From the NCBI RefSeq assembly GCF_000179555.1, contig NZ_AECZ01000031.1, positions 1 through 48,973 on the forward strand: a DNA stretch of 48,973 bases, written 5' to 3'. The notes beneath the pieces were generated by a model. The model was not told where the DNA came from. It ran no database searches and saw only the letters and a list, made by a program, of their open reading frames with translations. The DNA is from Solidesulfovibrio fructosivorans JJ] (GTDB taxonomy: Bacteria > Desulfobacterota > Desulfovibrionia > Desulfovibrionales > Desulfovibrionaceae). Both the position numbers and the translations under genes were made by a program. Shown piece by piece: positions 28,853 through 30,122 of the stretch. How positions within the stretch are numbered: the stretch's first letter is position 1; the number at the start of each line of letters is the position of its first letter.

Positions 28853-29017
28853 CTAGGACAGCCGGTCGATGTCCAGGGCCTCGCCGCAATGGGGGCAGCG
28901 CGACAGCCGGGCCCGGAACAGGCGGCTCGGTCGGAAGAAAAGCGCCCGCCAGGTCGGGCCGGTCGGTTTGAATTCCACCAGGATGGACATGCCGCAGCGG
29001 CAATAGCGACGTTGCAT
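28853..29017 (-). CDS. 54-residue zinc-ribbon protein
   Basis: The small basic protein (starts MQRRYCRCG) has two cysteine knuckles, Y-C-R-C-G at residues 5-9 and R-C-P-H-C-G near residues 40-44. Between them is an Arg/Phe-rich stretch (F-F-R-P-S-R-L-F-R-A-R). It probably binds zinc and perhaps nucleic acid. ATG 29017 follows GGAGGCG; a TTG at 29050 would add residues encoded by a palindrome and is unlikely. Two palindromes lie just upstream, the second matching an operator at the S24 repressor promoter, so the repressor next door probably controls this gene. Confidence 0.7.
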   Translation of the reverse strand: MQRRYCRCGMSILVEFKPTGPTWRALFFRPSRLFRARLSRCPHCGEALDIDRLS

Positions 29018-29030
29018 GATGCGCCTCCGT

Positions 29031-29048
29031 GTTGCGCGGTCGCGCAAC
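29031..29048. promoter_or_regulatory. Perfect 8-2-8 palindrome before the zinc-ribbon gene
   Basis: GTTGCGCG and CGCGCAAC flank two bases. It lies 14 bases upstream of the zinc-ribbon start, in the expected 5' leader or just before it. It could be a protein site or a leader hairpin masking translation. Confidence 0.5.
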
Positions 29049-29053
29049 AATCA

Positions 29054-29069
29054 GTTTATAAGTATAAAC
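29054..29069. promoter_or_regulatory. Operator O1 for the S24 repressor
   Basis: GTTTATA and TATAAAC flank a two-base centre, a perfect 7-2-7 palindrome. On the minus strand it reads GTTTATACTTATAAAC. The sequence at 29775-29790, on the repressor's own promoter, matches it at 14 of 16 bases. It lies 37 bases before the zinc-ribbon start, where a promoter would be expected. Confidence 0.7.
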
Positions 29070-29093
29070 ACAGCGGAGAAAAAAATTTCCCCC

Positions 29094-29774
29094 TTACAGC
29101 TCGCGCCCCACCCACAACACGCGCCCAATGACCCGCAAGGCGTCGATTTCGTCGCCGGAAAGGACAATGGGCGCATAGTCCCGGTTGTCGCTCAAAAGCA
29201 CCAGCGAGCCCGGGCGTTTTTCCACTCTTTTCACCAGCACCGTGTCCTCGACGCCCATGGCGTAGACGCCGTGGGCCACAATGGCGGTCTGCCCCTGGTC
29301 GATGAGCACCGTGTCGCCGTGGCGGATCTCCGGCTCCATGCTGTTGCCCACCACATCCATGAGCACCATGCCCGAGACGTTGCCCTTGCGCCGCAGCCAG
29401 TCGCCGCGAAACGGCACGACCGATTCGACCTCCCCCCGGGTCTCGAAGGAGCCGCCGCCGGCCGAAAGCCTGGCCCGGACCTTGGGCACGCCGATATAGG
29501 GGCCGTCCTCCGCCGTGTCGTTTTTGGCGGCCGACTTCGCCGGCCGGCCGTATTCCAGCCAGTCGGCGTCCGCCCCGGTCCGGCGGGACACGGCCAACAC
29601 CCAGGCCTTGGGCACGGCGTCCTTCTTCTTGGCCTGGGTCACGGCCGAACGATGCACCCCGAGCAGGGCGGCCAGTTCGGCCTGGGAAGCGATGTCCGCC
29701 GCCTGCGCGGCCCGGGCGAAAAAACCCTCGAAACCGCCGGCAGCCGCGGACGTGGCGTCATGTCGTTGCGTCAT
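29094..29774 (-). CDS. CI-type repressor with S24 (LexA-like) peptidase domain
   Basis: The 226-residue protein has an N-terminal phage CI-type helix-turn-helix (L-A-A-L-L-G-V-H-R-S-A-V-T-Q-A to D-W-L-E-Y-G, about residues 34-76), a hinge and a C-terminal S24 domain. The domain has the nucleophile S145 in V-G-N-S-M-E-P and the base K182 in V-L-V-K-R-V. An A105-G106 bond in L-S-A-G-G-G-S-F is a likely self-cleavage site, so DNA damage (RecA) could inactivate it. ATG 29774 has no ribosome-binding site, but a promoter ends seven bases before it, suggesting leaderless mRNA. The frame continues upstream to 29912 in non-protein-like sequence. No prophage genes surround it. Confidence 0.88.
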   Translation of the reverse strand: MTQRHDATSAAAGGFEGFFARAAQAADIASQAELAALLGVHRSAVTQAKKKDAVPKAWVLAVSRRTGADADWLEYGRPAKSAAKNDTAEDGPYIGVPKVRARLSAGGGSFETRGEVESVVPFRGDWLRRKGNVSGMVLMDVVGNSMEPEIRHGDTVLIDQGQTAIVAHGVYAMGVEDTVLVKRVEKRPGSLVLLSDNRDYAPIVLSGDEIDALRVIGRVLWVGREL

Positions 29775-29810
29775 GTTGATTCTTATAAACAACCCGTCAA
29801 CAGGGGGCAA
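29775..29810 (-). promoter_or_regulatory. Leaderless promoter and operator O2 of the S24 repressor
   Basis: On the minus strand TTGCCC (29810-29805), 17 bases and TATAAG (29787-29782) make a good sigma-70 promoter. Transcription should start seven or eight bases further on, at or next to the ATG at 29774. The operator-like plus-strand sequence GTTGATTCTTATAAAC (29775-29790) overlaps the -10 box, so the repressor should block its own transcription. Confidence 0.65.
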
Positions 29811-29942
29811 GCTTTTTTCCGCCCCCGCAAAACGAAATTTTGCGACCGCGCTAAAGTTCGGAAAACCATGGGCCGATAAGCCAAGCGAAGGACCCAAAGG
29901 CTTCCCGGCCATGACCGGGCGGCGCAGACAAGGATGTCAGCC

Positions 29943-30122
29943 ATGACCGTACCAGACAGTACCTGCAGGCCCCCAGGCGTCTCCCCGCCCCGCGAGGACC
30001 CGGCCGATCGCGCCCGCCGTATCGCCGATCTCAAGCGCCGCGTCCAGTCCGGCACGTACCTCATCCAACGCTACGAGATCATCGAGGGCCTGCTCGACGC
30101 GCTTGCCACCAACGCCGATTAG
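29943..30122 (+). CDS. Small FlgM-like protein
   Basis: The 59-residue protein has a Pro-rich, probably disordered N-terminal half. Its C-terminal helix pair reads R-A-R-R-I-A-D-L-K-R-R-V-Q-S-G-T-Y and Y-E-I-I-E-G-L-L-D-A-L. This resembles the sigma-28-binding C-terminus of FlgM (I-x-x-L-K-x-x-V-x-x-G-x-Y...V-A-x-x-L-L). FlgM holds back the late flagellar sigma factor. ATG 29943 has AAGGA at proper distance; ATG 29934 is nine bases upstream with no room for a site. The stop overlaps the stop of the convergent pseudouridine synthase by four bases. The call is tentative. Confidence 0.5.
   Translation: MTVPDSTCRPPGVSPPREDPADRARRIADLKRRVQSGTYLIQRYEIIEGLLDALATNAD

Follow-up and report, generated by a model that had tools for sequence, protein, structure and literature searches.

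Few cases of inducible mutagenesis controlled without LexA have been worked out, among them cases in Acinetobacter, Francisella, and Bacteroidetes. For Francisella, the consulted portions of the FddR study describe a co-opted phage-type S24 repressor that has a palindrome on its own promoter and controls both itself and an adjacent gene of unknown function; in some species it also controls the translesion polymerase gene dinB, with binding shown, and FddR is limited to one genus (PMC13148647). For Acinetobacter, the accessible parts of the UmuDAb–DdrR literature describe a damage response without LexA, in which an S24 repressor and a small neighbour lie under the same site and umuDC is controlled (PMC7273328, PMC11332147). 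The available text on IrvR of Streptococcus mutans presents an S24 regulator that resembles LexA and stands apart from canonical SOS; it acts on a biofilm lectin and is an exception to RecA dependence (PMC7101444). Our literature search, covering mostly papers outside subscription, returned nothing on a Desulfovibrio S24 repressor accompanied by a zinc ribbon and nothing on the SOS response, umuC, or DNA damage in sulfate reducers; a search of the same coverage on Desulfovibrionaceae and LexA, judged by titles, gave no paper on the topic. Within the portions available, one source found D. vulgaris to be without a SulA homologue (PMC4672049), and another makes no mention of Desulfo- (PMC8565304).

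In the current work, we describe a two-gene locus in Solidesulfovibrio fructosivorans JJ that encodes a CI/S24-type repressor and a 54-residue zinc-ribbon protein, here called ZnR. The window is the whole stretch of DNA analysed (48,973 nt of contig NZ_AECZ01000031.1), and all coordinates refer to it in forward-strand numbering. On balance, we lean towards the reading that a repressor of phage type, since domesticated, operates a DNA-damage switch that is independent of LexA and has ZnR and, sometimes, Pol V as its targets. Such a switch would be a candidate answer, in an order whose members are common sulfate reducers, to the question of inducible mutagenesis without LexA, consisting of a candidate operator, a cleavable repressor, and a conserved 54-residue protein; it also provides a hypothesis of function for ZnR, a family with no Pfam or NCBIfam match over its cut-off.

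The repressor, ZnR, and their candidate operators

The repressor gene (29097–29774, minus strand; stop codon at 29094–29096) encodes 226 residues that exceed the cut-offs of both Peptidase_S24 (PF00717; 68.4 bits, cut-off 23.3) and Phage_CI_repr (PF07022; 34.3 bits, cut-off 22). The cleavage-site residues Ala105-Gly106 and the dyad Ser145 and Lys182 are in place, and the Ala-Gly, Ser, Met, and Lys positions are invariant in all 135 ZnR-linked repressors aligned. The LexA model TIGR00498 remains below its cut-off on this protein (33.4 bits vs. 110.95), and LexA is its only PDB sequence match at E ≤ 0.001 (E = 6e-4). Each of the 14 genus genomes holds an orthologue, one of them cut by a contig end. 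The promoter of the gene has a constant geometry at the 13 genus loci where it can be read (the fourteenth, in G010, runs into the contig end): a TTGC.. −35 element (here TTGCCC, 29805–29810, minus strand) stands exactly 17 bp before TATAA(A/G) (here TATAAG, 29782–29787, minus strand), which is followed by 7 nt to the ATG. Transcription from a promoter of this geometry would begin at the ATG, so a leaderless repressor mRNA is well supported, as judged from the promoter sequence. A tandem pair of S24 repressors also occurs apart from the ZnR pair (G000:C1:99817-101426), with similar tandem pairs in G002, G004, G009, G010, G011, G012, and G013.

On the same minus strand, the ZnR gene (28856–29017; ATG at 29017, stop codon at 28853–28855) starts 76 bp past the repressor stop codon and encodes a 54-aa protein of the CxCG...CPxCG type (MQRRYCRCG...CPHCGEALDIDRLS). 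The two genes are adjacent in all 14 Solidesulfovibrio genomes, with identical ZnR start and length, and the family follows the pattern MQ.R[YF]C.CG...CP.CG..L.I..L. No Pfam or NCBIfam model exceeds its cut-off on ZnR, and comparison with PHROGs gives weak matches only, none of them full-length and mostly to the CPxCG knuckle. AlphaFold (AF2) predicts a small fold of beta structure (mean pLDDT 89.9, pTM 0.65), for which Foldseek finds nothing at E ≤ 0.001 in PDB or BFVD; with PDB sequence matches that are mostly single zinc knuckles, a guess at function from the fold was dropped. An anti-phage defence system was likewise rejected, as PADLOC models match no family for either the repressor or ZnR.

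Of the genes around the pair, the four closest that were scanned comprise those for an MFS transporter, a histidine phosphatase, and a pseudouridine synthase, together with an ORF whose FlgM match does not reach the cut-off. The 62-aa ORF beside the repressor (29934–30119) reaches 21.4 bits against the FlgM (anti-sigma-28) cut-off of 25. Much of what an earlier note on this DNA had claimed for the locus is upheld by these observations: the intact HTH, Ala-Gly site, and Ser/Lys pair of the repressor and, judged by promoter geometry, its leaderless start, the reality of the 54-residue zinc-ribbon gene, and, for the four neighbours scanned, the lack of phage genes around the pair.

The same note had placed a perfect 7-2-7 palindrome before ZnR and a 14-of-16 partner on the −10 box of the repressor promoter, and both are confirmed. 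The candidate ZnR operator, GTTTATACTTATAAAC (29054–29069, minus strand), is separated from the ZnR ATG by 36 bp and overlaps a candidate −10 box (TAAACT, 29053–29058, minus strand); the candidate −35 box is weak (TTCTCC, 29075–29080, minus strand), a variable TT.... hexamer lying 16 bp before the −10 in 14/14 genus genomes. The candidate operator of the repressor promoter, GTTGATTCTTATAAAC (29775–29790, plus strand), matches the ZnR palindrome at 14 of 16 positions and has the repressor −10 box within it. The exact pattern shared by the two sites, GTTNATNCTTATAAAC, occurs at these two places only in the 4,673,595-bp genome, and the reversed control pattern at none.

Across the genus, sites were scored by matches out of the 12 positions of GTTTAT-N4-ATAAAC. 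The ZnR site, 51–58 nt before the ATG, has all 12 matches in nine genomes, 11 in one, and 10 in four (n = 14); its outer halves are conserved and its four central bases drift. The site of the repressor promoter has 12 matches at four of the 13 readable loci, 11 at one (the window), 10 at one, and 9 at seven. Those seven all carry GTTTATAAAACGCAAC, with one half only well kept, and all 13 retain the promoter geometry and one half-site. Thus, conservation of the operators alongside the pair, which the earlier note had made its test, was found at ZnR, where the site is kept in all 14 genomes, and in part at the repressor, where it is good at five of 13 loci and has one half only well kept at seven. 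Perfect copies of the motif occupy 16 places in the 14 genomes (13 in the module, two before umuD, and one inside an open frame). With one mismatch allowed, 66 forward sites compare with 62 for the reversed-pattern control, so the additional sites are, as a class, background, and a larger regulon drawn from them was rejected. Seven of the 66 precede umuD; among ten one-mismatch places read closely, four lie before umuD and six inside open frames.

Between the ZnR operator and the ribosome site lies an inverted repeat, GTTGCGC-N4-GCGCAAC (29031–29048, minus strand), which is present by pattern in 12 of the 14 genus genomes and, by eye, in weakened form in the other two. This repeat lies close to where the ZnR mRNA probably begins and would form a hairpin there, perhaps one that stabilizes the message. 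As an order-wide RNA element it was rejected: ZnR leaders (n = 102; mean z-score −0.32) equal repressor leaders (n = 99; −0.27), and the hairpin is thus clear within the genus only.

Spread of the pair, LexA, and the link to umuDC

A search for the neighbour pair among relatives, as the earlier note had suggested, found ZnR by profile in 139 of 348 Desulfovibrionales genomes and in 30 of 59 sampled genera. Two fragmentary matches were dropped (the sole one in G147 and the second in G280), leaving 140 loci from 138 genomes; at 135 of these, an S24 repressor gene lies upstream in the same orientation, 47–601 bp away (median 153 bp), and the remaining five have no S24 match within 3 kb upstream on either strand. 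On a tree that combines 57 ZnR-linked S24 repressors with 29 unlinked ones, the linked state needs 3 changes vs. 24.4 in label shuffles, and the linked repressors are therefore essentially one old lineage. A related S24 protein (E ≤ 1e-40) is present in 22 of 47 tested genomes without a ZnR match. Spread of the pair past the order was rejected, given that 395 sampled genomes of the phylum yielded a distant zinc ribbon in eight outside Desulfovibrionales (two families), none with an S24 protein within 1.5 kb on each side. Distant zinc ribbons in other Desulfobacterota (L264, L267, L270, and L271) lie between genes that we take to be cobalamin adenosyltransferase-like and MsrA-like.

Most Desulfovibrionales seem, from profile searches, to lack a canonical LexA. 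TIGR00498 exceeds its cut-off in 0 of the 14 genus genomes and in 11 of the 348 genomes of the order, counts to be read alongside a control search that detects 7 of 14 known genomes at a looser E limit and 6 of 14 at a stricter one, such that a very divergent LexA could escape. The positive genomes are sporadic (G074, G123, G274, G288, G291, G307, G327, G018, G034, G066, and G067), several also having ZnR, and their LexA was possibly acquired; the 13 weaker TIGR00498 matches listed in the genus are UmuD proteins. RecA is matched in 12 of the 14 genus genomes (11 over cut-off). With a best score of 6–8 of 12 positions at the 12 genus loci, recA promoters are without the operator, and recA was rejected as a regulon member. 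Over the apparent −35 region, the 12 recA promoters (L313–L324) carry TTGCCG-N2-CGGCA(A/G), one of them with a single extra change; this element is possibly the operator of another recA regulator.

UmuD matches in the genus number 18, in 12 of the 14 genomes, and comprise 16 near-complete copies and two fragments. The near-complete copies were divided, after their promoters had been seen, into type 1 (eight copies, 71–100% identity to the query) and type 2 (eight copies, 64–69%). Six of the 16, all of them among the eight type-1 copies, are preceded by a site that matches 11 or 12 of the 12 positions; in G009 and G010 two such sites stand in tandem, 20 bp apart, and the umuD fragment G002:C10 has a site with 10 matches. 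No site reaching 10 of 12 precedes the type-1 umuD genes of G011 and of the window genome, and the operator is found at none of the eight type-2 copies. On the contigs searched, the nearest other S24 match to the type-1 copies is about 57 kb away (in G000). Two type-1 umuDC copies (L067 and L068) may be on mobile elements, each having upstream an ORF that we take to be tyrosine-recombinase-like.

Outside Desulfovibrionaceae, umuD and/or umuC follows ZnR, with gaps of 0 to ~140 bp, at ten loci in nine genomes of four families (G025; G041, G042, and two in G043; G051, G052, G053, and G056; G069); Pfam confirms UmuC at three of the ten and the UmuD S24 domain at two. One survey found this arrangement at 8 of 19 loci outside Desulfovibrionaceae vs. 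0 of 21 inside, and in a second, umuD followed ZnR at none of the 30 Desulfovibrionaceae loci that have 1 kb or more of sequence beyond ZnR. The gene order in G051 is repressor, ZnR, umuD, umuC, with S24 and IMS domains confirmed by Pfam. In G056, the ZnR stop codon abuts the ATG of umuC with no umuD between them and no repressor within 3 kb upstream, and the near-palindrome TTTACATAAGTAAAT is retained before ZnR. At 26 separate umuD promoters of other genera, the lineage operator as defined here occurs in none (G031 having been scored with the motif of a neighbouring genus). The earlier note's view that a single zinc-ribbon protein is the output of the switch is consequently too narrow, with an operator before umuD at six genus loci and umuD or umuC after ZnR at ten; its impression of damage inducibility is strengthened by the umuDC link and by the rarity of LexA, although the induction itself is something that we infer.

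Under the favoured reading of a damage switch, the repressor of an undamaged cell would sit on its own promoter, on that of ZnR, and on some umuD promoters, blocking them. DNA damage would give rise to RecA filaments that trigger self-cleavage at Ala105-Gly106 via Ser145 and Lys182; the promoters would then open, ZnR would be made, and resynthesis of the repressor from its leaderless mRNA would reset the switch. ZnR most likely joins the damage response alongside Pol V, where it would assist or restrain translesion synthesis or act on regulation in the way of DdrR; a role as a Pol V partner or as such a co-regulator fits the neighbourhoods best. Counting against a damage switch are recA, the 26 separate umuD promoters, and the window genome's own umuDC, all without a good site. 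On the same side stand the seven repressor promoters with a poor second half-site, the type-2 umuD copies, the one-mismatch count close to its control, the composition-controlled result of 12 in 58 loci given below, and the lack of umuD after ZnR at the Desulfovibrionaceae loci surveyed. A more tentative extension, to which we give rather less than even credence, is that Desulfovibrionales, being mostly LexA-less (whether LexA was lost or never present), run inducible mutagenesis through an anciently captured phage repressor whose core output, ZnR, acts directly on Pol V or the stalled fork; on this view, the repressor–ZnR–umuD–umuC row of the outer families may represent the ancestral unit, later split in Desulfovibrionaceae.

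ZnR could also be a feedback partner of the repressor and not an effector, either helping it to repress, as DdrR does, or relieving repression at the shared operators as an anti-repressor. The two genes are seldom apart (adjacent at 135 of 140 loci), within the genus the site stands on the ZnR promoter and, less well kept at seven of 13 loci, on that of the repressor, and DdrR itself is described, in the available part of its source, as a small co-regulated neighbour acting as co-repressor (PMC7273328). Five of the 140 ZnR loci, however, have no repressor within 3 kb upstream (one elsewhere in the genome being possible), and two of these locally repressor-free loci, in G053 and G056, keep umuD or umuC beside ZnR, an arrangement that speaks for a role with Pol V; we regard a pure feedback role as somewhat unlikely.

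A trigger other than SOS is less likely again. Here the same circuit would respond to oxygen, heat, or a metal without RecA, in the manner of IrvR, and ZnR would be a stress effector unrelated to DNA repair. IrvR offers, in the part of its description available, a precedent as an S24/LexA-like exception to the RecA rule, a cysteine-rich ZnR could conceivably sense metal or redox state, and the recA promoters and the 26 separate umuD promoters outside the genus have no site. Against this stand the ten loci with umuD or umuC after ZnR and the six with an operator before umuD.

Candidate operators in other lineages of the order

In some clades, the two promoters share another sequence of 6-4-6 layout, palindromic or nearly so: ATTAACttttGTTAAT in G015 and L195, GTTTATAAAAGTGAAC in G099 and L259, and GTTTACttttGTAAAC in G051 and L232. 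Among 58 representatives, promoters paired with their own partners score 12.24 vs. 11.75 ± 0.11 when permuted, with 0 of 10,000 permutations as high, a comparison in which base composition is uncontrolled. In the composition-controlled test, where the upstream sequences were shuffled, the shared site reaches p ≤ 0.05 at 12 of 58 loci and p ≤ 0.01 at 6 of 58; G007 and G004, two of the five Solidesulfovibrio representatives, fail it. Universal co-variation of the operators was accordingly rejected, since the permutation result held but the shuffle control was exceeded at 12 of 58 loci only. Going by these alignments, sharing of an operator between the two promoters is secure in some clades and putative in the rest, and the operators appear to move with the lineage in part.

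The same data bear on the very unlikely case that the palindromes are mere AT-rich promoter elements bound by no repressor. Each lies over an apparent −10 box, 46 of 58 lineages do not rise clearly above their shuffles, and 7 of 13 repressor promoters keep little beyond the −10 half; on the other side, the shared pattern has no further exact match in the genome, the outer halves of the ZnR site are conserved as its centre drifts, and some lineages have a different palindrome at both promoters, all of which counts against this case.

Most improbable of all is a relic of prophage immunity (in which a phage repressor would have decayed beside a passenger gene and been retained for superinfection immunity), for although the repressor falls in Phage_CI_repr and has phage relatives, the best being that of Desulfovibrio phage ProddE (MZ666938.1; 41.9% identity over 188 aa), ZnR is absent from 50,697 phage records and a search of IMG/VR contigs yielded none, the four closest genes scanned are non-phage, and an old single lineage in many genera with intact catalytic residues is not decay.

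Comparison with known systems

ZnR is a new protein family, with no curated model over its cut-off, inside a proposed switch that resembles known ones. The nearest described relatives of its repressor differ from it in distinct ways. The ProddE protein, its closest phage relative, is annotated as a repressor and is phage-borne, whereas ZnR occurs in no phage record. LexA shares the S24 autoprotease domain, but the window repressor has a CI-type HTH instead. IrvR, compared by description and from part of its source, is alike in being a LexA-like S24 regulator outside canonical SOS (PMC7101444).

UmuDAb–DdrR, as far as the available parts of its sources describe it, shares with the present locus a damage response without LexA (here predicted), a small neighbour under the same site, and umuDC (PMC7273328, PMC11332147). 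UmuDAb derives from a UmuD, however, whereas the repressor here has a CI-type HTH, and DdrR is not called a zinc ribbon in its abstracts.

FddR of Francisella is the nearest described case in logic. In both, judging from the portions of the FddR study at hand, a co-opted phage-type S24 repressor acts, or is predicted to act, where a working canonical LexA response is, or seems to be, lacking, with a palindrome on its own promoter (here well kept at some of the genus loci) and control, here putative, of a neighbour and sometimes of a translesion polymerase (PMC13148647). The two differ in architecture and reach: the FddR genes are divergent and their motif is GTG-N11-CAC, whereas the genes described here are co-directional with 6-4-6 operator halves; and FddR is a matter of one genus and dinB, whereas ZnR, the zinc-ribbon neighbour, extends to 30 of 59 sampled genera and is linked to UmuDC.
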